From positions 210,001 to 274,000 of the forward strand of contig JAODUO010000153.1 in the NCBI GenBank assembly GCA_025642075.2: DNA of 64,000 nt, read 5' to 3'. The translations under genes were made by a program, and so were the position numbers. Source of the DNA: Ridgeia piscesae (taxonomy: Eukaryota; Annelida; Polychaeta; Sabellida; Siboglinidae). Each line of letters starts with the position of its first letter. The first letter of the stretch is position 1. Positions 417 through 55,507 of this stretch are shown one piece after another. The notes beneath the pieces are model-generated. The model had not been told where the DNA came from, searched no databases, and worked only from the letters and a program-made list of their open reading frames with translations.

Positions 417-1934
417 TGTACAACACTACCTGTACAACACTACCTGTACAACACTACCTGTACAACACTACCTGTACAACACTACCTGTACAACACTACC
501 TGTACAACACTACCTGTACAACACTACCTGTACAACACTACCTGTACAACACTACCTGTACAACACTACCTGTACAACACTACCTGTGCAACACTACCTG
601 TGCAACACTACCTGTGCAACACTACCTGTGCAACACTACCTGTACAACACTACCTGTACAACACTACCTGTACAACACTACCTGTGCAACACTACCTGTG
701 CAACACTACCTGTACAACACTACCTGTACAACACTACCTGTGCAACACTACCTGTGCAACACTACCTGTGCAACACTACCTGTACAACACTACCTGTACA
801 ACACTACCTGTGCAACACTACCTGTACAACACTACCTGTACAACACTACCTGTACAACACTACCTGTACAACACTACCTGTACAACACTACCTGTACAAC
901 ACTACCTGTGCAACACTACCTGTGCAACACTACCTGTACAACACTACCTGTACAACACTACCTGTACAACACTACCTGTACAACACTACCTGTGCAACAC
1001 TACCTGTACAACACTACCTGTACAACACTACCTGTACAACACTACCTGTACAACACTACCTGTGCAACACTACCTGTGCAACACTACCTGTACAACACTA
1101 CCTGTACAACACTACCTGTGCAACACTACCTGTGCAACACTACCTGTGCAACACTACCTGTACAACACTACCTGTACAACACTACCTGTACAACACTACC
1201 TGTACAACACTACCTGTACAACACTACCTGTACAACACTACCTGTGCAACACTACCTGTACAACACTACCTGTGCAACACTACCTGTGCAACACTACCTG
1301 TACAACACTACCTGTACAACACTACCTGTACAACACTACCTGTACAACACTACCTGTGCAACACTACCTGTGCAACACTACCTGTACAACACTACCTGTA
1401 CAACACTACCTGTGCAACACTACCTGTACAACACTACCTGTACAACACTACCTGTACAACACTACCTGTGCAACACTACCTGTACAACACTACCTGTACA
1501 ACACTACCTGTACAACACTACCTGTACAACACTACCTGTACAACACTACCTGTGCAACACTACCTGTACAACACTACCTGTACAACACTACCTGTGCAAC
1601 ACTACCTGTACAACACTACCTGTACAACACTACCTGTACAACACTACCTGTACAACACTACCTGTACAACACTACCTGTGCAACACTACCTGTACAACAC
1701 TACCTGTACAACACTACCTGTACAACACTACCTGTGCAACACTACCTGTACAACACTACCTGTGCAACACTACCTGTACAACACTACCTGTGCAACACTA
1801 CCTGTGCAACACTACCTGTACAACACTACCTGTACAACACTACCTGTACAACACTACCTGTACAACACTACCTGTACAACACTACCTGTACAACACTACC
1901 TGTACAACACTACCTGTACAACACTACCTGTGCA
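417..1934. repeat. 14-bp minisatellite, about 108 copies
   Basis: Head-to-tail unit TGTACAACACTACC, with an A/G variant at its fourth base (TGTGCAACACTACC) scattered through the array. It ends 8 bp from the donor of the exon at 1943-2091. Read on the gene strand, each unit presents CAGGTAGTG, which resembles a 5' splice site. The array is open in all three plus frames because the unit has no stop and 14 is not a multiple of 3; these frames are not genes. Confidence 0.97.
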
Positions 1935-1942
1935 GCGCTCAC

Positions 1943-2091
1943 CTGAAGAGAGAGTTTCTCATGGCCATGTGATCGTGTTCATCCAACTCCACCATCTCAT
2001 CCTGGAAGAGTTCACAGTCGAGCCAGAACTCATACAAATGGCCCCCTGCTGTCCCGCGCAGGAACTTCACAAGGTCTTGCATTCCTTTCAC
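1943..2091 (-). CDS. RGS22: RGS22-like exon, start of an RGS domain
   Basis: 149 bp. Acceptor GATTGTGCAG|GTG and donor TTCAG|GTGAGC. Encodes VKGMQDLVKFLRGTAGGHLY, EFWLDCELFQDEM and ends HMAMRNSLFR. The L..FL....G..L..FWLDCE pattern is the first helices of an RGS fold. It leaves two bases of a split codon, so the next exon must begin with one base; I could not find it in positions 1-416. Confidence 0.82.
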
Positions 2092-5000
2092 CTGCACAAT
2101 CAACTAATCGTCAAATATACCAACACACGTTAGGTGTATCTGATTGACCATCCTGAACGTCTAGCTCTGATACATGTGTGCTTAATGATTTCTGGTCTAT
2201 TTTTGTTGCTGGACGTTTATGGATTAGCCTTAGTAGCTTTACAGGTGATATCAATGACATAGCATCACAGATAGTGTCTCAGTGATGCGGGATCTTCCAG
2301 ATAATACCTCATTTATACAAGTTTCATCATATATCAATTATATATAAGTTGCCTCACAGGTAACCTATCAGTGATGTAAGTGGCCTCACAGGTAACCTAT
2401 CAGTGATGTAAGTGGCCTCACAGGTAACCTATCAGTGATGCAAGTGGCCTCACAGGTAACCTATCAGTGATGCAAGTGGCCTCACAGGTAACCTATCAGT
2501 GATGCAAGTGGCCTCACAGGTAACCTATCAGTGATGCAAGTGGCCTCACAGGTAACCTATCAGTGATGTAAGTGGCCTCACAGGTAACATATCAGTGATG
2601 TAAGTGGCCTCACAGGTAACCTATCAGTGATGTAAGTGGCCTCACAGGTAACCTATCAGTGATGTAAGTGGCCTCACAGGTAACCTATCAGTTATGTAAG
2701 TGGCCTCACAGGTAACCTATCAGTGATGTAAGTGGCCTCACAGGTAACCTATCAGTGATGTAAGTGGCCTCACAGGTAACCTATCAGTGATGTAAGTGGC
2801 CTCACAGGTAACCTATCAGTGATGTAAGTGGCCTCACAGGTAACCTATCAGTGATGTAAGTGGCCTCACAGGTAACCTATCAGTGATGTAAGTGGCCTCA
2901 CAGGTAACATATCAGTGATGTAAGTGGCCTCACAGGTAACCTATCAGTGATGTAAGTGGCCTCACAGGTAACCTATCAGTGATGTAAGTGGCCTCACAGG
3001 TAACCTATCAGTGATGTAAGTGGCCTCACAGGTAACCTATCAGTGATGTAAGTGGCCTCACAGGTAACCTATCAGTGATGTAAGTGGCCTCAGAGGTAAC
3101 ATATCAGTGATGTAAGTGGCCTCACAGGTAACATATCAGTGATGTAAGTGGCCTCACAGGTAACCTATCAGTGATGTAAGTGGCCTCAGAGGTAACCTAT
3201 CAGTGATGTAAGTGGCCTCACAGGTAACATATCAGTGATGTAAGTGGCCTCACAGGTAACCTATCAGTGATGTAAGTGGCCTCAGAGGTAACCTATCAGT
3301 GATGTAAGTGGCCTCACAGGTAACCTATCAGTGATGTAAGTGGCCTCACAGGTAACATATCAGTGATGTAAGTGGCCTTACGGAGCCAAGAATCTGTTCC
3401 TTCATCTGTTGCAGACTCATCTTATGCTTGTTCTCGAGTTGTTTCATGTCTGACTCTGTCTGTTGGTCGCTGATGACATCGCTGCTGAAGGCAACGTATT
3501 GTTCCCCAGCCTCTTCCCCTTCAGCATCCTCGTCCTCCTGTGACCTGGACAGAGAGATGGGGAGATAGGGAGATAGGAAGATAGGGAGATAGGGAGATAG
3601 GGAGATAGGGAGATAGGGAGATAGGGAGATAGGGAGATAGGGAGGCAGGGAGATAGGGAGATAGGGAGATAGGGAGATAGGGAGGCAGGGAGATAGGGAG
3701 GCATGTATCGTCATCATACGTACGTAATATGAAACATAGTCAAGGATTTTGTTGATAGTGACATAACTATAAGATAAGTTGACAAATAAGTCACATTCAA
3801 ACAACTGTTCATAAAACGTTTTTTAAATGTATTCAATTTGTAAGTTCACTGATTTAGGGGTCTAACATCAATAATTTCCAACAATAGTAGCAACATTATC
3901 CAACATTTCACCATTTTAGGAAATAAATGTATGGCACAACATATCTATTGATTATATTTCGGGACTGTTTTTCATGTGAATTTCCCGATTGATAATACTG
4001 CTGCAATAGCTATGACACTATTGCAGTAATATCGTATCCCAATATAGTTAAGTAGTCAGACCATCAGTGGGCTAAGGCTGGTGTGACAAAGTATACTTAT
4101 GTTTTGTCTCTAGAAAATGTGTTTTATATGATAGCTGTTATGGCTTGGTAGCCATCTGTAAACTGGCTGTCAAATCCTATTTCCTCCTGTCATAATAACT
4201 ACATCACATAGAACCATACTTTTGGTGTCAACATATAAGTAATGGAGGCCACAGATTTTCAGTAATTTAGTTCTGAACTTTTGTGATTTTCTCATCTGTC
4301 ATTTTTAAAGATGGTGATCATCAATACAAATGTCACAGTATATCATAATATATCATAATATATCACATACAGTAGTTTTCTTTATGACATTGCAAAGCTT
4401 AGTGGATAACAATATTAAAAACTGGCTAGGTGGCCTGCAGGCCATTGGACTATGAGTTGATAGTTATAAATGAAATATGTGTGGTGAATCACAGTCACTG
4501 CCTAGTTTCTTCACTGTAATCACCCAATTGGCATTTTTTCTGGTTATTCATATGAGATGACCAGAAACACTCTAATTGGTTTGATCAGCTCCTATAATTA
4601 TATTAAATATAAATGTTCACAACTTTTCTCATTTACTTCAACGGACAATTTTGCACAAAAATATGAATATGGCGTCATGTAATATATGGCAAGCATTGTA
4701 CAGATCAACAAATCAGTTCTATACGTGTTAAAAACAACAAAGTTAAATTTAATTACAATGATTTATAATAAATGAAAGCATTTAAATGGCACGGTCTGGT
4801 AGTTGCTGAATGGGGAATTCCCCTTAGTTTGGGAATTTCCTAACTGATTCCTGTGGGGACAAGTTTCAAATAGCCACACCAAAATATTCAATCTGTTGTC
4901 TTTTGAAGTTACTCAAAGTATGCTTAACTTTGTTTATTTAAGTTTAGTGGGAAATACTGATGGAGTATGTACGAATTTGTGCGTGATTATTTCATGAATA

Positions 5001-8000
5001 TCAATGAGGACCACCTAGTGTGGCATTTGAGACTCTTCCATTGATTGTAAATTATTGCAATTTAATTTAACTTTTTAATTTTGAACATGCATACAAATGA
5101 TTTGTTATCTATATAATGCATACCATATATATCATATTCTTGTTTTTGCACAGAAATGTCTATTGGTGTCTATTGGTATAATCGGGAAGAAAAAAAAATT
5201 ACATCCAGTAGATAGGAGCTAGTCAAACCAAATGAAGCAACGTAATATGGTCAGTGGTCAAACATGTCCAAGTTTGAAAAATTATTTAATAATTAATTAA
5301 GCGGTTGCTCCATGGCCATCAAGTCATGGTCACATATCCTCTCAATGGTATGTTCTTATATTGGTTAAAGCATTTCAGCTCCCTTTTAAAGATGGTCACC
5401 AAGCCAATCAGATGCCCCACCATAATGGCTATCATATGTTCCAGACACTTCCACAGACATATATCTTATCAAAACATTTGTCACCACGGGTGGTACCGAC
5501 ATCTCACCCTTGAAATAGCTGATGAAAGTGGTGCATGTTTCCCAGGAATCATAGATTTGTGGAATAAAATAGTTGTACTTGTGGAGTAAAATGCACTCAT
5601 TTACCATTCGTGACACTTCATCTACCCTACCCCTGGGTCATCTACATAAAATTATATTATATTTTCTCAACATAAAAACAATTCTGACCATCTACTGTCT
5701 GGAAGTAAATTTACATCACTGCCACACTTAGTAGTGGCTCTTGGAGGTGTAGGTCACTGCAACCACAACATGCACATGACTGCACATGACTGCACATGAC
5801 TGCACATGACTGCACATGACCCATTGAAAAGAGGCAAACGAACTTAGTAAAATTGCAAGTTGACTGGGGATGATATGCATTTATATTGCTATAAAGTTAG
5901 CTTATTAATACATGCACATAGCTTTTGTACTACTTTTAAAGCATGTCAGTATATTTGTATATCTTAATTATGGGTAATTTTATATTGTTATGTTTGCCCA
6001 GGTGCTTATGACTACCGGGGTATGCCTGAGTTAAACTGTATTGTGACACCAGGGGGTTTGAGACACAAACGACTGACTTGTTGCTAGCAGAATCACTGTC
6101 TGCCTCTGTTGTATGATCCACAAGGTTCAGCTTCGGAGTCGCCTTCCTCAGTCTGATGGCTGACCTCTTGTGGTAGCGACCGTGGGTAGTAGACATGTCT
6201 GAGATGAAGGCGAGGAAAAAGGTTATCAGTCTCTACTCTCAGACACCTCAAATGTCTCGGTGTTCTACCAGTCATATCTCATACAAACCTTTTGATACAA
6301 TGTTCCTGAAGGTGTCAGTGGCACCGTCTAATGATTGTCAAACTAGCATTGGTGTGTTAAACTTTTCCTCCAACACACTTTGCATTTCTGGATATCGCCT
6401 AAGACCCTTTTGAGTAGAGTTTGCAATTGGAAGTTAATGATTGTCTGTAACATTACACATGTAGTGTTCTGCCACCATGCAGTGTTAAATAACCACCCAC
6501 CATGCAGTGTTAAATAACCACCCACCATGCTGTGTTAAATAACCACCCACCATGCAGTGTTAAATAACCACCCACCATGCAGTGTTAAATAACCACCCGC
6601 CATGCTGTGTTAAATAACCACCCACCATGCAGTGTTAAATAACCACCCACCATGCAGTGTTAAATAACCACCCACCATGCAGTGTTAAATAACCACCCAC
6701 CATGCAGTGTTAAATAACCACCCACCATGCAGTGTTAAATAACCACCCACCATGCAGTGTTAAACAACCACCCACCATGCAATGTTAAATAACCACCCAC
6801 CATGCAGTGTTAAATAACCACCCACCATGCAGTGTTAAATAACCACCCGCCATGCTGTGTTAAATAACCACCCACCATGCAGTGTTAAATAACCACCCAC
6901 CATGCAGTGTTAAATAACCACCCACCATGCAGTGTTAAATAACCACCCACCATGCAGTGTTAAATAACCACCCACCATGCAGTGTTAAATAACCACCCGC
7001 CATGCAGTGTTAAATAACCACCCACCATGCAGTGTTAAATAACCACCCACCATGCAGTGTTAAATAACCACCCGCCATGCTGTGTTAAATAACCACCCAC
7101 CATGCAGTGTTAAATAACCACCCACCATGCAGTGTTAAATAACCACCCACCATGCAGTGTTAAATAACCACCCGCCATGCAGTGTTAAATAACCACCCAC
7201 CATGCAGTGTTAAATAACCACCCACCATGCAGTGTTAAATAACCACCCACCATGCAGTGTTAAATAACCACCCACCATGCAGTGTTAAATAACCACCCAC
7301 CATGCAGTGTTAAATAACCACCCACCATGCAGTGTTAAATAACCACCCGCCATGCTGTGTTAAATAACCACCCACCATGCAGTGTTAAATAACCACCCAT
7401 CATGCAGTGTTAAATAACCACCCACCTTGCAGTGTTAAATAACCACCCACCATGCAGTGTTAAATAACCACCCACCATGCAGTATTAAATAACCACCCAC
7501 CATGCAATGTTAAATAACCACCCATCATGCAGTGTTAAATAACCACCCACCATGCAGTGTTAAATAACCACCCACCATGCAGTGTTAAATAACCACCCAC
7601 CATGCAGTGTTAAATAACCACCCACCATGCAGTGTTAAATAACCACCCACCATGCAGTGTTAAATAACCACCCACCATGCAGTGTTAAATAACCACCCGC
7701 CATGCTGTGTTAAATAACCACCCGCCATGCAGTGTTAAATAACCACCCATCATGCAGTGTTAAATAACCACCCACCTTGCAGTGTTAAATAACCACCCAC
7801 CATGCAGTGTTAAATAACCACCCACCATGCAGTATTAAATAACCACCCACCATGCAATGTTAAATAACCACCCATCATGCAGTGTTAAATAACCACCCAC
7901 CATGCAGTGTTAAATAACCACCCACCATGCAGTGTTAAATAACCACCCACCATGCAGTGTTAAATAACCACCCACCATGCAGTGTTAAATAACCACCCAC

Positions 8001-11000
8001 CATGCAGTGTTAAATAACCACCCAACATGCAGTGTTAAATAACCACCCACCATGCAGTGTTAAATAACCACCCACCATGCTGTGTTAAATAACCACCCAC
8101 CATGCAGTGTTAAATAACCACCCACCATGCAGTGTTAAATAACCACCCACCATGCTGTGTTAAATAACCACCCACCATGCAGTTTTAAATAACCACCCAC
8201 CATGCAGTGTTAAATAACCACCCACCATGCTGTGTTAAATAACCACCCACCATGCAGTGTTAAATAACCACCCACCATGCAGTGTTAAATAACCACCCAC
8301 CATGCAGTATTAAATAACCACCCACCATGCAGTGTTAAATAACCACCCACCATGCAGTGTTAAATAACCACCCACCATGCTGTGTTAAATAACCACCCAC
8401 CATGCTGTGCTAAATAACCACCCACCATGCAGTGTTAAATAACCACCCACCATGCAGTGTTAAATAACCACCCACCATGCAGTGTTAAATAACCATCCAC
8501 CATGCAGTGTTAAATAACCACCCACCATGCAGTGTTAAATAACCACCCACCATGCAGTGTTAAATAACCACCCACCATGCTGTGTTAAATAACCACCCAC
8601 CATGCAGTATTAAATAACCACCCACCATGCAGTGTTAAATAACCACACACCATGCAGTGTTAAATAACCACCCACCATGCAGTGTTAAATAACCACCCAA
8701 CATGCAGTGTTAAATAACCACCCATCATGCAGTGTTAAATAACCACCCACCATGCAGTGTTAAATAACCACCAACCACACAGTGTTAAATAACCACCCAC
8801 CACGCACTGTTAAATAACCACCTACCATGCAGTGTTAAATAACCACCCACCACGCAGTGTTAAATAACCACCCACCATGCAGTGTTAAATAACCACCCAT
8901 CATGCAGTGTTAAATAACCACACACCATGCAGTGTTAAATAACCACCCACCACGCACTGTTAAATAACCACCCATCATGCAGTGTTAAATAACCACCCAC
9001 CATGCTGTGTTAAATAACCACCCACCATGCAGTGTTAAATAACCATCCACCATGCAGTGTTAAATAACCATCCACCATGCAGTGTTAAATAACCACACAC
9101 CATGCAGTGTTAAATAACCACCCACCATGCAGTGTTAAATAACCACCCAACATGCAGTGTTAAATAACCACCCAACATGCAGTGTTAAATAACCACCCAC
9201 CATGCAGTGTTAAATAACCACCAACCACACAGTGTTAAATAACCACCCACCACGCACTGTTAAATAACCACCTACCATGCAGTGTTAAATAACCACCCAC
9301 CACGCAGTGTTAAATAACCACCCACCACGCAGTGTTAAATAACCACCCACCATGCAGTGTTAAATAACCACCCACCATGCAGTGTTAAATAACCACCCAC
9401 CATGCAGTGTTAAATAACCACCCACCATGCAGTGTTAAATAACCACCCACATGCAGTGTTAAATAACCACCACCATGCAGTGTTAAATAACCACCCACCA
9501 TGCTGTTAAATACCACCCCATGCAGTGTTAAATAACCACCCCCATGCAGTGTTAAATAACCACCCACCATGCAGTGTTTAACACACCTGCATGTTAAATA
9601 ACCACCACCTGCGTGTTAAATAACCACCCCATGCAGTGTTAAATAACCACCCACCATGCAGTGTTAAATAACCACCCACATGCAGTGTTAAACACCCCCA
9701 TTCAGTGTTAAATAACCACCACTATGCAGTGTTAAATAACCCCAATCATTTATTATGGTGTGTGTAAGTGACAGCATGCATGTCAGTGTGAGTTTACATA
9801 AGTACCTTTACATGCAGTGTAAATAACCACACCAGGTACAGTGTTATTACCTGTTGTATCCCACATGCAGTGAAACTTTAAGTCCATGCTGTGTTAAATA
9901 ACCCCCTCACATGCTGGTTAAATACACTCGACGGTGTTAAATAACCTGCACAATGCAGGTGAATTTAGTTATGGTGGTTAAATGCCTCACATGCAGGTGA
10001 CATTTAGTTATGGTGGTATACCACTTGCTGCACATGCAGTGCTTTAAACCCCCATGGTGTTAAATAACCATCCCCTGCAGTGTTAAATGACACCAGCATG
10101 CGGTGTTAAATAACCTGCCATCATGCATTTAATACATGGTGGGGTTTAATAGCCACCCACCCTGCAGGTTTAATAACCAGTTATGTGTGTTAAATAACCA
10201 CCCACCATGCAGTGTTAAATAACCACCCCATGCTGTGTTAAATAACCACGCCACCATGACATTTGTTAAATAACCACCCACCATGCAGTGTTAAATAACC
10301 CCCACTGCAGTGTTAAATAACCACCCCCATGCAGTGTTAAATAACCACCCACCATGCAGTGTTAAATAACCACCCATCATGCAGTGTTAAATAACCACCC
10401 ACCATGCAGTGTTAAATAACCACCCGCCATGCAGTGTTTAATAACCACCCGCCATTCAGCTGCGAACATTTTTTACATATGCAACTATCACAGAAAACAT
10501 ATGCAGCCATTGTGAATTTCTTCCTTCAATTTTTTTGGTGTGGGTGTATAGTGTACAGCATGTAGTGTCAGTATGAGTATTTTACTAAGTATTTTAAATG
10601 CAAAGTAAATATTTCCACAAAGGTTTACTTGGTGTTTTACCTGTTGTTTCCCCTGTCGAGTCTTTGAAGTCCTGCGTTGGGTCAAAGCTGACCTCCTCCT
10701 TCATCTTGACTGGGATCTTGGACGGTTTACCATCATACCTGCACATACAGGTGACATTTAGTTATGGTGGTGTAGATGCCTGCACATGCAGGTGACATTT
10801 AGTTATGGTGGTGTAGTTGGCTGCACATGCAGGTGACATTTAGTTATGGTGGTGTAGATGGCTGCACATGCAGGTGACATTTAGTTATGGTGGTGTAGAT
10901 GCCTGCACATGCAGGTGACATTTAGTTATGGTGGTGTAGTTGGCTGCACATGCAGGTGACATTTAGTTATGGTGGTGTAGATGGCTGCACATGCAGGTGA

Positions 11001-14000
11001 CATTTAGTTATGGTGGTGTAGATGCCTGCACATGCAGGTGACATTTAGTTATGGTGGTGTAGTTGGCTGCACATGCAGGTGACATTTAGTTATGGTGGTG
11101 TAGATGCCTGCACATGCAGGTGACATTTAGTTATGGTGGTGTAGATGCCTGCACATGCAGGTGACATTTAGTTATGGTGGTGTAGATGCCTGCACATGCA
11201 GGTGACATTTAGTTATGGTGGTGTAGATGCCTGCACATGCAGGTGACATTTAGTTATGGTGGTGTAGATGCCTGCACATGCAGGTGACATTTAGTTATGG
11301 TGGTGTAGTTGGCTGCACATGCAGGTGACATTTAGTTATGGTGGTGTAGATGGCTGCACATGCAGGTGACATTTAGTTATGGTGGTGTAGATGCCTGCAC
11401 ATGCAGGTGACATTTAGATATGGTGGTGTAGATGCCTGCACATGCAGGTGACATTTAGTTATGGTGGTGTAGTTGGCTGCACATGCAGGTGACATTTAGT
11501 TATGGTGGTGTAGATGCCTGCACATGCAGGTGACATTTAGTTATGGTGGTGTAGATGCCTGCACATGCAGGTGACATTTAGTTATGGTGGTGTAGTTGGC
11601 TGCACATGCAGGTGACATTTAGTTATGGTGGTGTAGATGGCTGCACATGCAGGTGACATTTAGTTATGGTGGTGTAGATGCCTGCACATGCAGGTGACAT
11701 TTAGTTATGGTGGTGCAGATGGCTGTACATGTAGGTGACATTTAGTTATGGTGGTATAGATGCCTGCACATGCAGGTGACATTTAGTTATGGTGGCGTAG
11801 ATGCTGTACATGCAGGTGACATTTAGTTATGGTAGTGTAGATGCCTGCACATAATGTCTTTCGACACTTCAGGAGTTTTTTTGAAAATCAGTGGCATAAG
11901 TTCATTGGAACGTGACATGCAAACACTATTGACCAGGTATTCAGCAATATGTTTGGATCTGGAAGGTCTAGATAGCCACACTTGATATCAATTCAGCCGC
12001 GAATTGTCATTCATTCCAGAAATGCCTGTCCTATCTGTTTTATGCTTTGATGTCATTTTGGATGAGAAATTTAACATGGCCACTCATCCATGACGATCAT
12101 CGACTGCAGGAATATGATCAGCCATAACTTGGGAACTGTTAATATTAAACTTACAATGCAAGTTTCAAACAAAATTCTAGTATTGATTGGTACCAAATAA
12201 ATCTGGGGGTAAGTGACAAGGAAGCTGTTTTAATAAAAACTGTTCATCATTATGTTTAATGAACACTGTATTGGAGAAAACAATGGTACAACTTACTTTT
12301 ACTTGTTCCACTGACATTAATGAAAAGAAAAGACACCACAGAAGATCAGGTAGAACAAGGGCTGCAACCGATGATAACAACAGGGAAAAGAAGACGGGGT
12401 GTAAGGAAGACGGTACAGACAGAATTAGGGTGGGCCAAATTAACCCTGACACAAACCTGATTTCTTTCTTCTTGCCCCTGGGTGGGGTGGCGGGGTGTGC
12501 AATATGTTTGTTGCTACCCTCACTTGATTCCTTTGATGGGTCCGTCTTTGTCTTACTACTGAGGCTTTGACTTGACCCTCCTGCATAAGACATGAAGCAG
12601 CATTCACACGTACGAACATAGACAAACATTACTGGCTTTGAACTGTGAATCTGTTTAGCTATTTATTCAATTGATCTATTTTATACTAATTTAATGAGTT
12701 GTTATTTTTAGTCATGTTGTATGTTCCATTTATAATAATATAGTTTGCTAAATATTTTTATTTTTATGCTTTAATTTATCTAAATGTATATATTCATATT
12801 AGAGAACATTAACAGTTTTACTATCCGACATTTTTATCATTTTAATTTTACTAGACATTCTAATTAGTAACACTTTCATATATTGTTATGCTTTCATAAA
12901 TAGTTTTACTAATATACATTAATGAATTTGTTATCAACCATAATGTTCTTATTGTACAACTCAGCCGCTTTGGCTGCCAGGGAAGTGAATAAACGTTTTT
13001 ATATGTAGGGTTGTCCTGATCACTTCTAAATGTATGACTTCACGTCTACTCCTTTCAAAGCATATTTCTTCATAATTGTATATCATACCATGTGACTTAT
13101 TATTAAGTAGTTAGTTACTTGACTTGTTTTGTTTTTTCATGTTGTGTGTTTTGAAATGAATTGATTGAAATTTATTAATTAACCGATTTTGTTGATGAAT
13201 TGGTGGTTCATATTTCTGATTAGTAAATCAATTATTATCTTGGGTGATTGATGAACATTTTCATTGTGCAAAAACAATCTTTGAATATATTATGCATCAT
13301 GATTGAATGGACCAAACCTGCTTTGGTTTTCTAATAATGGCACCACCAAAAGTGTCACATTACACAATGTTAAGAAATTTCACAACATGATATAGTTTGG
13401 TCAAATATTCTGTATGAATCGATTGTCAATTGATGGGTTACATTAGGAATAAAACTGTCAAACACAAATTAATTATAAAATCAATCATCAATCCAAAGAT
13501 CTTCTATGAAATTCAAACTAATTCCAAACACTAGCATTATCATAAATAATAATATATTTTATTTCATATAGCACTACATCCAATACAAAAAAATTTGATG
13601 TAATTTTTTATATAAAATCTCTAATTTAACCCACCATTTGAGGTTATTTTGTTTCATCTCTATCAACTCTATTACTGCAGACTGTGTATTGTATTTGCAG
13701 CCATGACTAAAATTATAATAATTGTGAAGCAGAACTCTTAAAGAGAATGCTATAGTTGGGGTATGGTTCAAAAAGGGTTATTACATGTACCCAGACAACT
13801 TTAATTGTAAGATCTCTGGATTGTCAAAAAGACTCTACATCAACCATAATGCAAAAACGTGTGCGATTTTCAGTCAAATCATATCAAAGATTCAATATTT
13901 AATCCTGCGGTGCCCTTTGATTAAGTGTTTGCCTTTATACAAATGCACACTTAAATCAACTATTTAACAACAGATAAGATAAGGATGCAAGTACCTAGTC

Positions 14001-23576: not shown

Positions 23577-23589
23577 CTGCAAGAAACCA

Positions 23590-33409: not shown

Positions 33410-34061
33410 ATCTGTGTCTACGGCTTGCTATAAGCTGCATGCTGTAAATAAGGGTTAATCGAGTTGCCTCAAAAATATTGGAAATTATATTGCTGGAACT
33501 TTTGACACCATATCTTAATACAACCGACACTCAGTTTGGATTTAAGAACGGACACTCTACTGACCACTGTATATTTGCTTTAATTTTTTTATTCAGTACT
33601 ATAAAAGTAACAATAGCCCGGTGTATTCATGCTTTCTGGACGCTTCAAAAGCATTTGACAGAGTCAATCACTGGACGCTTTTTAGAAAATTGCCTAATCG
33701 AGGTGTGCCTGTTGTACTTATCCGTATCTTGTTGTACTGCTACAGAACCCAAACAGTCTGTATCAAATTGGGTTCTACAACATCAGACTTTTTGAATGTT
33801 TCGAATGGTGTTCGACAAGGTGGGATTTTGTCCCCATATTTATTTATCGTATACATTGATGATCTGAGCAATATGCTCAATAGTGCTGGTACAGGTTGCC
33901 ACACACACAACTGCTGCACTAATCACGTGCTCTATGCTGATGACATATGTGTTATTGTTCCCATGCAGTCATATAGTGGGCTTCAGGGTTTGCTGAACAT
34001 ATGTGCAAAGTTTGGTCTGGAAAATGATGTTGAATATAACCCTATCAGGTCGTTATGTATG

Positions 34062-40604: not shown

Positions 40605-40706
40605 AGCTACGAGAATATATATATATTACAAAAATATATGTATATATCATATACTATTTCACAAATGCTTTGCGATTGGATCAAATAAATACTATTATAA
40701 AATGAA

Positions 40707-43424: not shown

Positions 43425-43545
43425 TGACACAGAATAGTACATATTTGACACAGAATGGTACATATTTGACACAGAATGGTATATATTTGACACAGAATGG
43501 TACATATTTGACACAGAATGGTGCATATTTGACACAGAAAGGTAC
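43425..43545. repeat. 21-bp tandem repeat, about six copies
   Basis: Unit TTTGACACAGAATGGTACATA. 21 is a multiple of three, so frames through it are periodic; no gene inferred. Confidence 0.92.
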
Positions 43546-44486: not shown

Positions 44487-44611
44487 GGCCAAAAATTAAG
44501 TCAAGTTGGTCTACAGACCAAGTCATTTGTATCGAGTTGTATCTCTGGGATTAAAAAACAAATTACACATAACTACTGAATGCTTGGAGTGTCTTAACTA
44601 TATCAAACCTG

Positions 44612-44945: not shown

Positions 44946-44947
44946 CA

Positions 44948-45193
44948 TTAGGTGTCTAGTTGACAAAGCAGGGCCACACCACGCATCACCCAGAACTCAG
45001 GTACATGGTCACTGGGCAGACTGACCGTTGTGATGAAGTTGGTGGACATGCCAGTGGATGAGAGAGTACCTGCCCGACTGGATGTCCGATAGAGTGGACA
45101 TTCGTACGTGCGTTTGTCCTCATTCCCTTGTTCTGAGCTCTTGAACATCGCTAGAGGCGACTCAAAGTTGGTTGATGTAGTCCGACTGAGATT
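44948..45193 (-). CDS. Dynein heavy chain last coding exon
   Basis: 246 bp including TAA at 44948-44950. Acceptor TATTTCTTCCAG|AAT. Encodes NLSRTTSTNFESPLAMFKSS, TYECPLYRTSSRAGTLSSTG, then MSTNFITTVSLPSDHVPEFW and RGVALLCQLDT. The ending is the standard dynein C-terminus. Confidence 0.94.
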   Translation of the reverse strand, partial: NLSRTTSTNFESPLAMFKSSEQGNEDKRTYECPLYRTSSRAGTLSSTGMSTNFITTVSLPSDHVPEFWVMRGVALLCQLDT

Positions 45194-48100
45194 CTGGAAG
45201 AAATACAAGTCAAAATTCCTCAAGTTTGACAAAAGTCGACAATTAAATAATCATGTATTACAACCAATTTCATCATCACACTAAGAAATTACTTTTAAAT
45301 GAAAGTCTGAAGATTGTTATATGATACAAAGTAACGGCATAGCACCAACGTAGGCAGGATTTACCAGTAGTTTTCTAGCATAATACATATCTATGAGCCA
45401 TTCACTATATACTATAATATGCTAGTCAGTTTGTCCATATAGTTTTTAGTTAACTAATATTAAATTAAAGAAGTATTTTGTAAATTATACTAACTTAACT
45501 GTTAACACATTACACATGTGGACGTACACAAATTGGGTTTATGCTGGGAAAATAAGCTGAGGAAATAATAACCATAATTTGTGGTCAAATGGAGCCTTGC
45601 ATATACTTTTTAAATAAAGACCCTGATTGCTTCACGTACCGCATTGGGGATGAAGTGAACTTGTGGGAGTTTGGAGAATCTATTTCCTGGGAGTGCGTCT
45701 GACAGTGCCCCTGCATTCACGTCCCACCTGGCGCCATCTATGTACAGGCCAAATACCAACACGCCATTTATAGGCGGTGTATGGCCCTGCAATTAAAACC
45801 ACCATACATTATACAACAGTTGATAAAAACATTACACACCTTACATTGAATGGATAGAAGTTTATGTCAGTTTATAATATTTGGAACTAAAGTTATGATA
45901 ACGGCTCTTACATTTTATCATAACAAATCATTGAAATATTGTCACCATTGAAACTTGCAAGTTGGTGTCATTCACCGAGTCACGTTTTGTCCCTAAAGTC
46001 AATGCCAGTACTGGACTAGGGAGTTTGCTGTAGTCTGTGTCTGCATTTACACTTTCAAATATACTACCTCATAGTGGTAGATCAGTGGAAAATATTGCTA
46101 AATTCCACCATCATTCAAAAACATCCATTTACAAACTTGTCTATCCACCATAGCTCCATGTCATATCAATCAATCTGATGACAACTGAAATAGTTTATTG
46201 ACTCTGAGGTTGATTAACTCCTTTTATATTGACATGTCTCTTATAATTATTACTATATCTTATTCATGTTTTAATAATAATAATAATTGTAAAGCGTCTA
46301 TAGCACGTACAGTGTATATCCTTAAAAACAAAAATTCAGAGTGCAACAAACAAAGTCTTTTGGTGTAATTATAAACGGGGACAGGCAAAAGTCGTCATTG
46401 GATCATGGAACTGCCAAAATATATGGTGGAAAAGCAATTTCAATCAAATATGTTTTGAGGTATTTTTTTTACAAAAGGTGTCTATGCAGTACTGTAGTTT
46501 CAGAAGGTTTAATTGTAATAGAGAGTTGATACCAGATTGTTGGTGCAGCTACTAAAAAAGCATGTTTGCCAATATTGAGCTACATTTTAGGAAAACATTT
46601 TTTTAGCAACGGATGATCTAAGGGTCATAGAGATGTCAGAGAAATGTAGCAGATACCTAAGTATGTCAGTTGTTGAGTTGAAACAGTAAGGTATGTAACA
46701 GCAGCCAGTTTAAATGTCATTCGGTATACAATTGGACGCCAACAAAACGGCTTAAGTAGTGATAGTGATGGTGAGAAACAGGGGGCCTTAAAAATTGCAT
46801 GCACTGTTTGTGCACAGGAAGGAAAGCGTTGCGGACACGCCATCATCTTGCAGCTGCTCAATCTAAGTTTCTAACCTACCGTGAATGCTAGCTGTTGAAT
46901 GTCAAGTTTTCGTTGAATGTCATTCAGTGAGTCATTGGTGTCTGACGAATTGTTCATGACAGCAAATTCGAAGGTGAGTGAGTCAACGGAGATGCCCAGT
47001 TTGCGGGCGTGATTCTGCAGCACCGCAGTCAAGAACCCTGCAGCAGATGACAAGTGATTACCATCTAAAAAATTTTATATTATAAAATGTCACTTTGTAT
47101 TAGAACATTTATCTGCAATACATCTCTCAGCCTTTGCTACCTTTCTCTTTGACTTTGGATTCTTTATAAATTCCAACATCAAGTTTCCATAACTTTGAGG
47201 ATGTAACAAACAACTGAAGATTTTTCCAAGACCAACGAAGATATATAACACGTTTTGCCGTCAAAACAGTCATAAGACAGGTAAGATCAAAGTGTTGACC
47301 AACCCTGTGGAAAGAAGAACCCAGGACAGCCAGAAACTACTGGGCTGGGTGTGCCAAGCCCTGCCAGGTGAACTCTCCTGGTCGTTGCTACTGCGAGACA
47401 TCTGCAGCCGCTGCAGGTATGTGCCGATGAGCTGTGACCTGAGAGCTTTCTCACTGGCCGCAGTCACAAGTTTGGCCCAGCCCGAGAAGAAGGTCACACG
47501 CTGGATGAGGTCTGATACCCACTGTGCCAACGGCTTGCATGACTCGTATGCAAATTGCTGCAACATGCCATGTAGACTCCATTTAAATATTTACACTTGG
47601 ATCAACAGTATATACTAGTTAAAATATTCACATAGGAAATACAGATTTTTTCATTTAAAGACCTTTAATTTTCCACCTTTTTGATTATTTACTACAACAA
47701 TATTCACTGTAAAATCAATCGATTTGTTGCGCCCTGCTTACAAGGTACAAGATCATTCTTGGCACATCATTTCTTCTGTCACTGGTGATTGTACATTTTC
47801 CTATGCGTGCTTTCATCACAAACAAGACTAGCTTGTAAAAATCACAATGCAGAAACAGAATGATAAAATTACAACAATGGAAACCAGAGCACAAAACCAA
47901 GTACAACAAAATCTGTATTGCAGAAAAAGGCAGAATTGGGAATTGTTCATTATAGTGGCCTGGCCTGCACCCTATAAACTCCCCATTACAAAAAAATCTG
48001 AAACTATAGTTACTTCTTGTTAAAACATTCAAAGACTTACTTTAAGCAAAACGTGATCGAAGAAAACGAAGAAAAATATAATATACACCTGTACATGATT

Positions 48101-51100
48101 TTGCTGTATTGCAATTTTTTTTAGATTTATGACATGAAATATTCGAAACTAGTTAAGTTATTTCTCTCGCCTTCCTAAAAGTCCAGGATTCACTTCCACA
48201 CATGCTAACTGGAAATACAAATGCATTCATATATCTGCTCTTCATCTTTGTCTTTCCACGTCTTAATTAGTCTCGCCACAGCAGTTCTATTGAATACCAA
48301 ACACCTACTGATACTTGTAGTGGACTGACTAATTCTAGAAAAGGACAAGAACAAGAACAAGATGTTAATTTTTTGACCCCAAAATAAGTATACATGAATA
48401 AAATAATCATAAGGTGAAACATAAACAAACCGTCATACATCAGTAATTTAAAACAGTGAAATGGGGTCAGTGACTCCTGTTAAGACTGAAAAGTCGCTAT
48501 CACAGGAGCCACTCGTAGTAATTATACATTTAGTTAACCTCTCAATATACGTATGTATAGTAATTTTTACTTCAATAGTAATTTTTTCATCAATACGATT
48601 TGTTTTCTCTTAATAGTTTATTCTATCTCTGATGCATGCTTCTCTGTAGTATAAGTAAGTATAAATAATTAAGTAACAATAAAAAATACATATAACAATT
48701 CATTGCATCTATCCATATATGTGCATATTAAAATTCTAATGACTTTGTGTATTAAACTTACATATGTAACAATCAGATATTGTACATACGTTTTGATATT
48801 TTTGTTAGAGATACATTTACAACTCCTGTGTTAGCTGGGCTGTTTGATGAAAACCACCGGAGACAGTGAATGGTTACAGAGGTGGTTACTAGTTAAAATG
48901 GAATGAAAATAAAACCAATGTGCAGTCTCACCCGCCAGTGGGCAGGCACTTGCTGCTTGAGGATGGCGTTGTAAGCCTCGTCCAGCTTCTCCGACATGAC
49001 CACCTCACCCTTGATGGCAAGCTGGAGGGACTTGAGGGACTGGTGGATGACCGACAGCAAGTGGTTGAAGCGGTCAATCTCCTGCCGCAGCACTGTGAAC
49101 AGGGCTGACCGGTTGATGGACCGGATCTTGTCAACAGCCATCTCCAGCGACTGACTCGCCTCATCACTGGATCCTACAGGGACAATCACAGGAAATGGGG
49201 ACAGATCAGTATGAATGTGTTTCCACGTCACAGGACACATGACTCGGGGACAGATCAGTATTTATTTTTCCACTTCACAGGCAGGACAGATGACATGGGG
49301 ACAGATCAGTATTTATTTTTTCCACTTCACAGGCAGGACAAATGACACGGGGACAGATCAGTATTTACTTTTCCACTTCACATGCAGGACAGATGACATG
49401 GGGACAGATCAGTATTTATTTTTTCCACTTCACAGGCAGGACAGATGACATGGGGACAGATCAGTATTTATTTTTCCACTTCATAGGCAGGACAGATGAC
49501 ATGGGGACAGATCAGTATTTATTTTTCCACTTCACAGGCAGGACAGATGACATGGGGATCAGATCAGCATTTATTTTTCCACTTACAGGCAGGACAGATG
49601 ACATGGGGAAGATCAGTTTTATTTTTTCCACTTCACAAGCAGGGCAGATGACATGGGGACAGATCAGTATTTTTTTCCACTTCATAGGCAGGAAGATGAC
49701 ATGGGGACAGATCAGTATTTATTTTTCCACTTCACAGTGGACAGATGACATGGGGCAGATCAGTATTTATTTTTCCCCTTTGAGGCAGGACAGATGACAT
49801 GGGACAGTCAGTATTATTTTTCCACTTCACAGGCAGGACAGATGACATGGGGACAGATCAGTATTTATTTTTTCCACTTAACAGGCAGGACAGATGACAC
49901 GGGGACAGATCAGTATTTATTTTTTCCACTTAACAGGCAGGACAGATGACATGGGGACAGATCAGTATTTATTTTTTCCACTTAACAGGCAGGACAGATG
50001 AAATGGGGACAGATCAGTATTTATTTTTCCACTTCGTAGGCAGGACAGATGACACGGGGACAGATCAGTAATTACTTTTCCACTTCACCGGCAGGACAGA
50101 TGACACGGGGACAGATCAGTATTTATTTTTCCACTTCACAGGCAGGATAGATGGCATGGGGACAGATCAGTATTTATTTTTCCACTTCACAGGCAGGATA
50201 GATGGCATGGGGACAGATCAGTATTTATTTTTCCACTTCACAGGCAGGATAGATGACATGGGGACAGATCAGTATTTATTTTTCCACTTCACAGGTAGGA
50301 CAGATGACATGGGGACAGATCAGTATTTATTTTTCCACTTCACAGGCAGGACAGATGACATGGGGACAGATCAGTATTTATTTTTTCCACTTAACAGGCA
50401 GGACAGATGAAATGGGGACAGATCAGTATTTATTTTTCCACTTCGTAGGCAGGACAGATGAAATGGGGACAGATCAGTATTTATTTTTCCACTTCGTAGG
50501 CAGGACAGATGACACGGGGACAGATCAGTAATTACTTTTCCACTTCACAGGCAGGACAGATGACACGGGGACAGATCAGTATTTATTTTTCCACTTCACA
50601 GGCAGGATATATGGCATGGGGACAGATCAGTATTTATTTTTCCACTTCACAGGCAGGATAGATGACATGGGGACAGATCAGTATTCAGTTGCCCTCTTCA
50701 CAGGAAACATGACATGGGAACATAATCAGTATTTAGTTTTCCGTTTCACAGAATGCATGAAATGGGATTACATCAGCATTAATTTGTTCTATACTTGATG
50801 GTGCACAAAGTAAGGAGCTCAGTGATGCTCCCAGAGAACTCAGAGTGATGACTGCCGACCTTTCTCCTTCTTGCCCTGTGTAGGTTCTTTGTACTTTGTC
50901 TTGGCGAAGGCCATATCAGTGCTCATCCCGATCTTGGCAACATCTGCAAGAGACAGTGGGTGCAGCATCTTGAGAGCGGCACACACTTCTTCGTCATAAA
51001 TGTCCACCTCCGTTGGTAGAGAGCGAGTCATGTCTGCCGCGATCTCCAGCGCAATTTGATCACTGCTACGGCCGTCCCTATACCAAACAGACACAGTTTA

Positions 51101-54100
51101 ACTCACCGTAGACAACTGATACATTCATCACATGAGAAACTCCCTCAAAAGGTTCATCAAGCCATCAAAACATGGGTGCCAAACTGTTGTTTTATTGACA
51201 TTATAAAGGTTACTTGTCATGACAACTGCATGCATGGAAATAAAATCTATGAAATGTCATAATGTTAATGTTATCATAATAATAAGGTAACTTCTGTTGT
51301 GTTTAATCCTTGGAAATCAAGTTCATAGGTACATTAAAACATCAGCATTGATCAGTATCGAATATGAATATTAATACAAATACATTTATTTAGGGTAAAA
51401 AACATACAGTTGGTATATACACAAACATAGCCTTTAGAAGGTAAATATGTTAAACAATGAGTAGATAAAAATAAATAAGGTTATAAGTGTAAAAGTGTAA
51501 TATAACAGATAAAACAATGAGCAATATATCTCACTGTATATAAATATGCAATTTATACATGTTGAGAAACACAATTTGAAAATAAAAAAGGAATGGATAA
51601 AATAAATAAATTGATAAGCTGTATAAACGAAGTTAATAACTAAATAAATAATAATAAACATATATGCAAGATATGATATCTATCTTACTGGTTTACAGTG
51701 TACAGTGATTAGGCCCAGCTGCACCACATTGGGTCATTAACTATATCTATGCAATTTACTGGACTAAATCACATAAGTCCATTTTGATTAATCATGAATA
51801 TTGTAATCACCACATCTAAAATATCTTGTCTTGCCATTTCACAACCTCAACAGACAAAAACCTATCTGCTATGTTGTCAGTTGTCACAGCAAATGAGACA
51901 ATCAGTCATGTGACAATCAGTCATGTGACAATCAGTCATGTGACCAATCAGTCATGTGACCAATCAGTCATGTAACCAATCGGTCATGTGACCAATCAGT
52001 CATGTGATCAATCAGTCATGTGACATACCCTATGAGACCCTTCATGATGCGTGGTTGCACTCCAAGGATTGTCTCAATGAATGTGCCAGCCTGCGACACA
52101 AGGTAGGCTTTCTCTGCATTCTCATTCATCCCAAACACCTCTGGGTCATCTTGGGCAGGCAACGTCTCGATGTACACCTTTGCCTCAGTGAAGCTGAAGC
52201 CTTGAGGCAGAGGGTGGTACAACTGGGCAACAAAAGGAGATATGGGGTACAATCACACGTCATTTACATTTCTTTGTTTATAGAATACCATAAGTGTTTA
52301 AACAAATATAGTGTTTGCTCATATAAAACAGATCAGGCTAAAAATAAATAATACGGTAACTTCTAAATCAATCCTAAATCAAGAAAAGCAAGAAAACATG
52401 GATACGTATTCACAAATACTGCTAAGAAATTTCGAAAGTATGGTTATTATGTGACATCGTAAAGGGCACTATTGTGAGAAAAAAGGAATTACAATTACTA
52501 GTAATCAGCATAGTTGGAATAGTTTTTGCGACAGAAAGATGCAAATATGGGTGATAGTGGCTCATACATCACGGACACCTGAAATGAATGGCAAATATGA
52601 GAGCGGCAAAGAAATAATCAGAGGCAGACACAGGCTGAGATGAGAGGACTGGAAAGAACAGCTGGGCTGACGTGAACCGTCATAACTGGTGGTGACTGCA
52701 GAAGAGACAGGACCAGGGACGGAACTGACAGGTGAAGCAGGAGATGCAACTAAGTTGCCCACACCCCAACCCACAAGGGGAGGGGGAGGAGGAGAATGAG
52801 TGTCTGTGAGCACGTTGTGGTGTATCCATAATAATGATGTGTGACTGTTCATTACTAAGACATCCCATCAGGGGATAGGACATTTTGCTATTTAATATAA
52901 TAATTTAACAAAATTGACACAAACAAATGTGAGACTTACCTTGTCTTTGGAGTAGTAGTAGCCATGCTGTAGGATGTTGGGATGGTAGAATTTCTGCAGG
53001 AGGCTGTGGAGACAACGCCGGTCCATGTCGTCTGTCACCCTGCCTCCATATGTCACTTCCCCAGTTAGGTACCACAGCGCCGGCCACGGGATCACTTCCT
53101 GCTCCTCTAGTAGCATCTCAAGCTGAAGGACTGACACCTGCAACACACACTGACACCTGCAACACACACTGACACCTGCAACACACACTGACACCTGCAA
53201 CACACATGACACCTGCAACACACACTGACACCTGCAACACACACTGACACCTGCAACACACACTGACACCTGCAACATACACTGACACTTGCAACAAACA
53301 CTGACACCTGCAACATACACTGACACCTGCAGCACACACTGACACCTGCAACACACACTGACACCTGCAACACACACTGACACCTGCAACACACACTGAC
53401 ACCTGCAACACACACTGACACCTGCAACATACACTGACACCTGCAACACACACTGACACCTGCAACACACACTGACACCTGCAACATACACTGACACCTG
53501 CAGCACACACTGACACCTGCAACACACACTGACACCTGCAACATACACTGACACCTGCAGCACACACTGACACCTGCAACACACACTGACACCTGCAACA
53601 CACACTGACACCTGCAACACACACTGACACCTGCAACACACACTGACACCTGCAACACACACTGACACCTGCAACATACACTGACACTTGCAACAAACAC
53701 TGACACCTGCAACATACACTGACACCTGCAGCACACACTGACACCTGCAACACACACTGACACCTGCAACACACACTGACACCTGCAACACACACTGACA
53801 CCTGCAACAACACTGACACCTGCAACACACACTGACACCTGCAACACACACTGACACCTGCAACATACACTGACACCTGCAGCACACACTGACACCTGCA
53901 ACACACACTGACACCTGCAACACACACTGACACCTGCAACACACACTGACACCTGCAACACACACTGACACCTGCAACACACACTGACACCTGCAACACA
54001 CACTGACACCTGCAACACACACTGACACCTGCAACACACACTGACACCTGCAACATACACTGACACCTGCAACATAACACTGACACCTGCAACATACACT

Positions 54101-55507
54101 GACACCTGCAACACACACTGACACCTGCAACACACACTGACACCTGCAACACACACTGACACCTGCAACATACACTGACACCTGCAGCACACACTGACAC
54201 CTGCAACACACACTGACACCTGCAACACACACTGACACCTGCAACACACACTGACACCACAAAACACACTGACACCTGCAACACACATGACACTGCAACA
54301 TACACTGACACCTGCAACACACACTGACACCTGCAACATACACTGACACCTGCAACACACACTGACACCTGCAACATACACTGACACCTGCAACACACAC
54401 TGACACCTGCAACATACACTGACACCTGCAACACACACTGACACCTGCAACAAACACTGACACCTGCAACACACACTGACACCTGCAACACACACTGACA
54501 CCTGCAACACACACTGACACATGCAACACACACTGACACCTGCAACACACACTGACACCTGCAACACACACTGACACCTGCAACACACACTGACACCTGC
54601 AACACACAATACCACCTGTAACACACACTGACACCTGCAACACACACTGACACCTGCAACACACACCACTGACACCTGCAACATACATGGACACCTGCAA
54701 CATACACTGACAACTGCAACACACATTGACATCTGCAACATACACAAACACCTGCAACACACACTGACACCTGCAACATACACTGACACCTGCAACACAC
54801 ATGGACACCTGCAACACACACTCACACCTGCAACACACACTCACACCTGCAACACACACTCACACCTGCAGCAAAGATCTAACTAAGAAATGTTAATACA
54901 GATCACTGAGACAAGTATGCATCATATACATCACTACAATCTGTAGCACTATAAGTCACTGATACTTACATAAAGTGCAACACTGAAATCTTAACCAATA
55001 CAACAGCAATTCTTGTCCACATGTACAACATTAAAACCAAACACTTCACATTGTGAAATTTGCTGCATTCATTAATGAATGCAGCTCATACATCACTAAA
55101 ACTTGCATCATAAATATCATTGAGCCACACAGCTAGCCTTGTACTGAACTACAACACAAGAGACACAAGTCATCACAAAACATGCATCACACAACAAACA
55201 TACAAGTGACACAAACATAACCTACAGCCACAACACAAACATTAAACACAACTGCTACAAACATGACACTGCCCACCTCAAGATCAGAGTCACTGAACTC
55301 GTAAGGTATGTTCCAACCGAGCCGGCCGTATTTCTTCCTCTCGTGGATGACCGCATTGAAGAAACACAGTCCAAAGAGAAGTGTCCGCCATTCTGGGTGG
55401 TCCGCACACGACTCCTCGTACAACTTCTGGGTGATTGCTCCAGAGCCCCCACCCCCAAAAGATCGGAGCAGGTTTGCCTTCAGGCCCTGCGGTGGCTCCA
55501 CTGTCAT
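44948..55507 (-). CDS. Axonemal dynein heavy chain, C-terminal nine exons
   Basis: Minus-strand spliced region giving about 628 residues of the motor C-terminus (end of the AAA ring and the C-terminal domain). Dynein heavy chains are ATP-driven microtubule motors of ciliary arms. Diagnostic motifs in order: PPQGLKANLLRSFG, GLCFFNAVIHERKKYGRLGW, NIPYEFSDSDLE, TGEVTYGGRVTDDMDRRC, DDPEVFGMNENA, VLRQEIDRFNHLL, SFWLS, GFLTAVLQNHARKLGISVDS, DALPG, CPLYRTSSRAGTLSSTGMST and RGVALLCQLDT-stop. All joins are in phase except for one extra base in the exon at 47304-47557. The DNAH subtype is not settled; an insertion before SFWLS and the LKANLLRSFGG stretch make me lean toward DNAH14-like, from memory only. 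Exons encoding the rest of the motor were not found to the right. Confidence 0.92.
45640..45786 (-). CDS. Dynein heavy chain exon (GVLVFGLYIDGARWD)
   Basis: 147 bp, 49 codons, phase 0. Acceptor TTTTAATTGCAG|GGC and donor AATGCG|GTACGT. Encodes NGVLVFGLYIDGARWDVNAG, DALPGNRFSKLPQVHFIPNA. Confidence 0.92.
45787..46879. other. Intron with an old LINE 3' end
   Basis: From about 46260 to 46830: AATAATAATAATAATTGTAAAG then GCGTCTATAGCACG, and further along AATTGGACGCCAACAAAACGG. This layout resembles the 3' end of the CR1/L2 element at 34062-34900. Degenerate. Confidence 0.5.
46880..47037 (-). CDS. Dynein heavy chain exon (GFLTAVLQNHARK)
   Basis: 158 bp, two bases in, phase 0 out. Acceptor CATCTGCTGCAG|GG and donor TTCACG|GTAGGT. 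Encodes FLTAVLQNHARKLGISVDSL and TFEFAVMNNSSDTND. Confidence 0.92.
47304..47557 (-). CDS. Dynein heavy chain exon with one extra base before GFFFPQG
   Basis: 254 bp. Acceptor ATGTTGCAG|CAA and donor CACAGG|GTTGGT. Encodes FAYESCKPLAQWVSDLIQRV, an unusually long insert (LVTAASEKALRSQLIGTYLQ and more), then QPSSFWLS. After TTCTGGCTGTCC one extra T throws the invariant GFFFPQG out of frame. Correct phases need 253 bp, exactly one fewer. Confidence 0.88.
47558..48931. other. Intron, AT-rich
   Basis: No supported feature. Confidence 0.4.
48932..49173 (-). CDS. Dynein heavy chain exon (VLRQEIDRFNHLL)
   Basis: 242 bp, two bases in, phase 0 out. Acceptor TCCCTGTAG|GA and donor TGGCGG|GTGAGA. Encodes ALFTVLRQEIDRFNHLLSVI and MSEKLDEAYNAILKQQVPAH. 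The V..QE.DRFN.LL and QVP..W motifs are typical of the family. Confidence 0.92.
49196..50722. repeat. 51-bp minisatellite near a dynein acceptor, about 30 copies
   Basis: Unit contains ACATGGGGACAGATCAGTAT, TTATTTTTCC, ACTTCACAGGCAGGACAGATG. A diverged partial unit reaches to about 20 bp from the acceptor at 49173. Units around 49550-49810 have many 1-3 bp indels, probably consensus errors. Confidence 0.95.
50860..51077 (-). CDS. Dynein heavy chain exon (variable segment)
   Basis: 218 bp, 1 + 216 + 1. Acceptor TTTGGTATAG|G and donor AAAG|GTCGGC. Encodes DGRSSDQIALEIAADMTRSL, then a less conserved stretch ending TKYKEPTQGKKEK. The donor is weaker than the others, but phases fit on both sides. 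Confidence 0.85.
51078..51895. other. Intron, AT-rich
   Basis: No supported feature. Confidence 0.4.
51896..52024. repeat. 16-bp tandem repeat at a dynein donor, about eight copies
   Basis: Unit CAATCAGTCATGTGAC. It begins about four bases into the intron after the donor of the exon at 52029-52222 (GTATGTCACATGACTGATTG on the gene strand). Confidence 0.93.
52029..52222 (-). CDS. Dynein heavy chain exon (DDPEVFGMNENA)
   Basis: 194 bp, phase 0 in and two bases out. Acceptor TTGCCCAG|TTG and donor ATAGG|GTATGT. Encodes LYHPLPQGFSFTEAKVYIET and DDPEVFGMNENAEKAYLVSQ. Confidence 0.92.
52223..52939. other. Intron, no feature seen
   Basis: Unique sequence; open frames here are not supported by splice sites or similarity. 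Confidence 0.4.
52940..53137 (-). CDS. Dynein heavy chain exon (IPWPALWYLTGEVTYGGRVTD)
   Basis: 198 bp, 66 codons, phase 0 both sides. Acceptor GTGTTGCAG|GTGTCAGTC and donor GACAAG|GTAAGT. Encodes VSVLQLEMLLEEQEVIPWPA and TGEVTYGGRVTDDMDRRC, near-universal in axonemal dyneins. A 19-bp array upstream repeats its acceptor and first bases. Confidence 0.93.
53128..54872. repeat. 19-bp minisatellite made of a splice acceptor, about 91 copies
   Basis: Unit CTGACACCTGCAACACACA; on the gene strand TGTGTGTTGCAGGTGTCAG. The real acceptor is TGTGTTGCAG|GTGTCAGTC of the exon at 52940-53137, so each unit copies the acceptor and about eight exon bases. Units with CATACA, CAGCAC or AAACA variants are interspersed. 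The Cys/Val-rich frames across it (up to about 650 codons on the minus strand) are not proteins. Confidence 0.97.
54873..55276. other. Intron, no feature seen
   Basis: Between the 19-bp array and the dynein exon at 55277; short ACAACACAAACA-like stretches only. Confidence 0.4.
55277..55507 (-). CDS. Dynein heavy chain exon (PPQGLKANLL to NIPYEFSDSDLE)
   Basis: 231 bp, 77 codons, phase 0 on both sides. Acceptor GTTCTGTTCCAG|ATG and donor CTTGAG|GTGGGC. The first codon is ATG but follows an acceptor, so it is internal. This is the most upstream dynein exon found in the window. Confidence 0.93.

Follow-up and report, generated by a model that had tools for sequence, protein, structure and literature searches.

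Minisatellites at the exon-intron borders of neighbouring DNAH6 and RGS22-like genes: probable new cases of the mirage kind of tandem repeat

We analyzed a stretch of 64,000 nucleotides, here termed the window (G000:C153:210001-274000), from an assembly of 628,048,202 bases in 4875 contigs. Its minus strand carries C-terminal exons of DNAH6 and exons of an RGS22-like gene, and large minisatellites lie at the exon-intron borders of both. We modelled 17 exons on this strand (8 RGS22-like and 9 DNAH6), giving 32 junctions. A first-pass annotation had likewise reconstructed 17 minus-strand exons and had singled out eight splice sites flanked by tandem arrays, all eight of which coincide with ends of our modelled exons. 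DNAH6 was identified by a PDB sequence match (E 2e-98, with an approximate joined peptide as the query), and RGS22 by a PDB match with E 7.9e-10, or 9.5e-5 for the longer joined peptide. The RGS22 alignment runs across the first modelled junction, between exons R0 and R1 (LALP/VFPQAL against LSLP/TFSEAV, the slash marking the junction), and thereby confirms it; reading frames over the modelled junctions agree with the homologues. The gene parts rest on these matches together with the exon models, and the single exons on the models:

1943..23578, minus strand: part of the RGS22-like gene
ends at 23488, upper end not set, minus strand: RGS22-like exon R0
16202-16018, minus strand: RGS22-like exon R1
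14273-13995, minus strand: RGS22-like exon R2
12580-12457, minus strand: RGS22-like exon R3
10738-10641, minus strand: RGS22-like exon R4
6198-6078, minus strand: RGS22-like exon R5
3544-3382, minus strand: RGS22-like exon R6
2091-1943, minus strand: RGS22-like exon R7
44948..55507, minus strand: C-terminal part of DNAH6
55507-55277, minus strand: DNAH6 exon D1
53137-52940, minus strand: DNAH6 exon D2
52222-52029, minus strand: DNAH6 exon D3
51077-50860, minus strand: DNAH6 exon D4
49173-48932, minus strand: DNAH6 exon D5
47557-47304, minus strand: DNAH6 exon D6
47037-46880, minus strand: DNAH6 exon D7
45786-45640, minus strand: DNAH6 exon D8
45193-44948, minus strand: DNAH6 exon D9

Exons R2 and D6 each contain a frame break, which may be a sequencing error or real. 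Tandem Repeats Finder returned 44 rows for the window, or 33 arrays once overlapping rows are dropped. Defining a large minisatellite as an array of 100 bp or more with a period of 8 bp or more, we count 12, of which one is coding and the following 11 are non-coding:

416..1931, minus strand: A1, 14-bp unit x108, RGS22 intron after exon R7
2345..3378, minus strand: A2, 32-bp unit x32, edge 3 bp from donor 3382
3554..3700, minus strand: A3, 8-bp unit rich in pyrimidines, immediately upstream of acceptor 3544, 9 bp away
6472..10459, minus strand: A4, 25-bp unit in intron R4-R5, unanchored, 181 and 273 bp from its junctions
10738..11852, minus strand: A5, 41-bp unit x27, ending in the exon R4 acceptor (TGTGCAG/G) with a 1-bp exon overlap
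16185..17695, minus strand: A6, 56-bp unit x27 spanning exon R1 acceptor 16202 with an 18-bp exon overlap
43419..43545, no strand assigned: A7, 21-bp unit past the DNAH6 stop codon, no modelled junction near
49195..50751, minus strand: A8, 51-bp unit x31, occupying most of intron D4-D5, edge 21 bp from acceptor 49173
51899..52024, minus strand: A9, 16-bp unit x8, 4 bp past donor 52029
53130..54870, minus strand: A10, 19-bp unit x92 (GTGTCAGTGTGTGTTGCAG), 8-bp overlap with exon D2 at acceptor 53137
58255..58928, no strand assigned: A11, 23-bp unit, no modelled junction near

The periods of 14, 32, 8, 41, 56, 51, 16 and 19 bp given by the first-pass annotation for its eight arrays were all recovered, and at all eight splice sites the array edge lies 1-21 bp from the modelled junction. 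We term an array anchored if its edge is no more than 25 bp from such a junction. The first-pass annotation had held this placement to be unexpected for randomly placed minisatellites, and the comparison bears it out: 8 of the 11 large non-coding minisatellites are anchored against 0.24 expected under random placement in the window (P 7.4e-12), the nearest junctions of the other three being 181, 1648 and 2747 bp away. Anchoring is confined to the large class (8/12 with the coding array included, against 0/14 short minisatellites and 0/7 microsatellites; Fisher P 3.6e-5). The window was picked after the pattern had been seen in it, and these P values are accordingly not blind.

Geometry might produce the same pattern, in that arrays born in short introns lie near splice sites in any event and later fill those introns. 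Of the eight arrays whose introns are complete, five indeed leave less than 610 bp of unique intron, one of them 129 bp (the unanchored A4 is among the five). Yet random placement of each array inside its own intron still gives 7 of 8 anchored against 1.55 expected (P 6.8e-6; A1 is omitted, its intron extending past the window), two of the anchored arrays have introns that offer 2.4 and 5.8 kb of slack, and confinement does not predict units with exon bases in them. We regard it as a very improbable account of the arrays.

Such units are present, and from them it follows that the segment which was duplicated extended over the exon-intron border. In all 26 full units of A6 there is a pyrimidine tract, followed by CAG and by the 18 opening bases of the exon, one of the 18 being variable; as the R0/R1 junction is confirmed by the RGS22 alignment, the exon bases in these units are copies of real coding sequence. 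In A10, TTGCAG occurs 80 times. On the donor side, A1 begins 11 bp into the intron from donor 1943 and its units have the donor-like form CAG/GTAGTGTTGTA, each reading CAG/GTAGTG, and the first 32-bp copy of A2 opens with the donor GT of 3382 itself (GTAAGGCC...), most others reading GTGAGGCC... The proposal that the arrays often contain the splice signal is thus correct for five of the eight (1943, 3382, 10738, 16202 and 53137), with the units at 3544, 49173 and 52029 lacking it. A3, at acceptor 3544, is a pyrimidine tract only, its unit being without AG. We do not claim that A8 derives by divergence from its acceptor, its terminal 41 bp scoring 12 against a shuffle maximum of 13. As had been noted from the outset, the arrays are unrelated in sequence: units of different arrays share at most 8-9 bp, which amount to the splice consensus, and a shared repeat family was therefore dismissed.

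The spare signals, or decoys, are largely intact, AG or GT being kept in 26/26 units at 16202, 26/27 at 10738, 86/91 at 53137, 108/108 at 1943 and 28/32 at 3382. Scored with generic splice-site frequencies, decoys equal or exceed the authentic site in 20/26 cases at 16202, 14/25 at 10738, 57/79 at 53137 and 0/108 at 1943; at 3382 all 29 scored decoys outscore the authentic donor, and at 49173 none of 18 does, the AG-like copies of A8 all scoring under every authentic acceptor. Trial translations through decoys at five junctions (18 cases) hit a stop in 14 and a frameshift without a stop inside the exon in one, the remaining three being in frame and open (two at 53137, one at 49173). Among 31 junction scores computed in a search for echoes of junctions without arrays, only two were unexpected, those of the R4 and D1 donors, and the acceptor next to A8 had none. 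The D1-donor echo is a 16-bp intron-side match inside A10, and the R4-donor echo is the blended stretch in A4 discussed below.

Selection might have maintained the arrays if the extra copies of splice signals or pyrimidine tracts lend robustness to splicing or adjust the inclusion of exons. The uneroded state of most decoys, the copies at 3382 that outscore their authentic donor and the array at 3544 that constitutes the pyrimidine tract are what such a role would lead one to expect. However, homogeneity within arrays accounts for intact decoys without selection, as most columns outside the splice signal are equally invariant in A6 and A1; moreover, use of the decoys would mostly damage the protein, and one array outside the window has copies that lack the AG altogether (see below). 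Hence, we consider maintenance by selection unlikely.

The non-blind choice of the window is addressed by a sample taken outside it, namely 60 exon loci (30 Dynein_C and 30 of the chaperonin family) covering 150 kb and holding 30 unique large arrays. With the ends of exon matches, which only approximate splice sites, as reference points and the window's contig left out, 15 of 29 large arrays lie within 60 bp of such an end against 4.2 expected (P 1.6e-6). When two near-duplicate contigs are also left out the count is 13 of 26 against 3.7 (P 9.7e-6), and 8 of the same 26 lie within 30 bp against 2.1 (P 7e-4). By-eye reading of 14 edges of the 13 arrays within 60 bp found six that span a splice junction (C525:520289, C17:986356, C17:989170, C564:256541, C564:265259 on the donor side, and C497:227321) and one that spans a dynein stop codon. 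With junctions refined in 14 chaperonin introns, 3 of 4 arrays reach into the exon (by 7, 15 and 9 bp) against 0.50 expected (P 0.0065), a count that is not independent since these three arrays also figure in the 60-locus sample. In the genome as a whole, the analysis covered the 60 exon loci and six gene stretches. Overall, roughly half of the large arrays in the neighbourhood of conserved exons abut an exon edge, and roughly one in four extends over a splice junction or, in one case, a stop codon. Chance placement is ruled out by the window, size-class and outside-window counts taken together, and anchoring exceeds chance both in the window and in unlinked genes of the same genome. The first-pass annotation had described the arrays in two neighbouring cilia genes; the chaperonin (CCT) genes show the same border arrays, which disposes of a cilia-specific feature and leaves that link incidental.

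The array at C497:227321-228684 (L005) has a 25-bp unit and lies over an acceptor; 28 of its 29 matched copies read CTGTATATCA, with T for the G of the AG, and the real acceptor is consequently the sole good one among them. At the same locus, a dynein intron (C497:228982-229772) is nearly filled by a 35-bp array that comes to within about 10 bp of the acceptor and a few tens of bp of the donor. The stop-codon array, at C4045:1494-2197 (L023), has a 39-bp unit that holds the last codons and stop of a dynein heavy chain, and its copies continue beyond the stop; similar arrays are found in C4725 (L025) and C4402 (L024).

Mis-assembly could have generated the arrays or their lengths. Within A4, positions 9760-10060 (minus strand) interleave the 25-bp repeat with sequence found about 790 bp away, that of the A5-end/exon R4/intron stretch. 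One or the other source accounts for 99% of the bases; in 100 random intron controls the figure averaged 85% and did not exceed 90%. This mixture, the frame breaks in exons R2 and D6, and the aberrant draft assembly of one globin array of the comparable amphioxus type (PMC3087553) speak for artefact. The border-spanning design nevertheless recurs with different units on several contigs, and the repeats in amphioxus PGBD5 were confirmed by re-examined Sanger and new Illumina data (PMC3902484). The blend itself hints at a consensus made from alleles about 790 bp apart in length, and so at length variation and not at missing arrays. Given this stretch, array lengths are to be taken as unreliable, while array borders seem sound, and artefact is to our minds the least probable of the explanations considered.

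We therefore think it very probable that the window arrays are minisatellites of the kind termed mirages in amphioxus, in which a border segment was duplicated, expanded and homogenized on the intron side. Most likely, slippage or unequal exchange would first duplicate a short segment across or at an exon-intron border, and the copies would then expand and homogenize by concerted evolution on the intron side, as the presumed direction of copying. Each unit of the strict cases would bring its own acceptor or donor, some with a few exon bases, so that growth would push spare signals into the intron and leave the exon and its own junction unchanged. Such growth would do no harm, since every copy either supplies a signal of its own or leaves that of the exon where it was, and the spliceosome would presumably use the copy nearest the exon, for which exon definition is the simplest account.

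Several observations weigh against this reading. Three of the eight window arrays and 6 of the 13 outside arrays adjoin exons without carrying the junction, which means that border-spanning does not explain all anchoring; confinement alone yields 1.55 hits in the within-intron null; the C497 copies lack the AG; and the splice scores depend on generic frequencies. The expected gradient, with older copies distal to the exon, is also uneven. In all four acceptor arrays tested the third farthest from the exon is the most diverse, and the two donor arrays (1943 and 3382) have no distal-diversity trend. A clear gradient is seen at 16202 alone (rho 0.54, P 0.005); that at 53137 is weak (P 0.03), and 10738, 49173, 1943 and 3382 give none that is significant. 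As the gradient is significant in only two of these arrays and also present in the unanchored A4 (rho -0.37, P 1e-5), the direction of growth stays tentative.

The first-pass annotation had offered two causes, local duplication that repeatedly starts at borders and tolerance of copies with extra splice signals. The former finds support in the enrichment in the window and elsewhere in the genome and in units that span the border, but a bias in birth is not separable from better survival. The latter agrees with decoys that are mostly intact and on the intron side. Three of the eight arrays have no splice signal, and tolerance alone is insufficient for the border excess, since repeats are tolerated in mid-intron as well. 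The excess requires either a junction-linked duplication bias or maintenance of spare signals, between which the data do not separate. We advance only tentatively, as somewhat less than an even prospect, the wider proposal that functional gene borders are genome-wide birthplaces of minisatellites in this lineage, which may lie outside amphioxus, through border-tied duplication coupled, for instance, to transcription or splicing. If borders do seed repeats, mutation would here be linked to the structure of genes, and introns would grow by it and perhaps also arise anew. An intron that holds 20 to 108 nearly identical splice signals is also a natural test of spliceosome choice and exon definition, and in gene annotation predictors can pick the decoy sites.

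The window has other features. A long open reading frame at 59410-61290 (plus strand), with RING-finger and NHL matches, is possibly nested in a DNAH6 intron; its internal 18-bp coding repeat (60110-60314) is the one coding large minisatellite. A reverse transcriptase fragment (Pfam RVT_1, E 8e-19) lies at 33564-34133 (plus strand). The window yielded no matches in an Rfam scan at the gathering threshold or in a tRNA scan, and loci L033, L047 and L051 likewise had none in Rfam.

Amphioxus has many GFP genes. A search of the present genome for the GFP family PF01353 gave 0 matches, which would be unexpected for Branchiostoma and is weak evidence against amphioxus; as the search had no positive control, absence is not implied. 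Searches of the literature brought up no genome-wide test of array placement at junctions, most subscription papers falling outside them. In passages of PMC2206037 and PMC5802833, border-spanning repeats do not figure. Amphioxus VCBP3 introns, which hold complete or partial exons with splice sites, may be related (PMC2632668). In intron gain at proto-splice sites (the Rogers model, with human internal tandem repeats and AGGT; PMC3087553, PMC2812944), the duplication includes border splice signals, as here, whereas in the present case the introns pre-exist and the duplicates lie inside them. The C. elegans minisatellite CeRep25B is also intronic and over-represented near alternative splicing regions (PMC4039745), but it is one dispersed family with a 24-base unit, whereas here the units of the strict cases each come from their own junction.

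The closest counterparts are the amphioxus mirages, tandem repeats over exon-intron borders in Adh3, the globins BflGb6 and BflGb9, troponin C and PGBD5, with splicing apparently undisturbed, copy number varying between haplotypes and the mechanism of origin unclear (PMC3087553, PMC3902484). The window arrays fit their structural definition and are new cases of a kind already described. The unit spans the border in three of the eight (1, 8 and 18 bp of exon overlap) and in 6 of 13 outside arrays, two further window arrays hold the donor in register, and many but not all units keep AG or GT in the window counts and outside, with C497 as the exception. Amphioxus mirages similarly occur on donor and acceptor sides, with units that carry AG or GT though not all do, and their units are 10-160 bp long. 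They differ in that the globin and PGBD5 mirages have 2-7 units, compared with up to 108 here, where in addition eight arrays occur in two neighbouring genes, their placement is tested against chance, and one array outside the window spans a stop codon. If this genome is not that of a cephalochordate, mirages are more widespread than reported.

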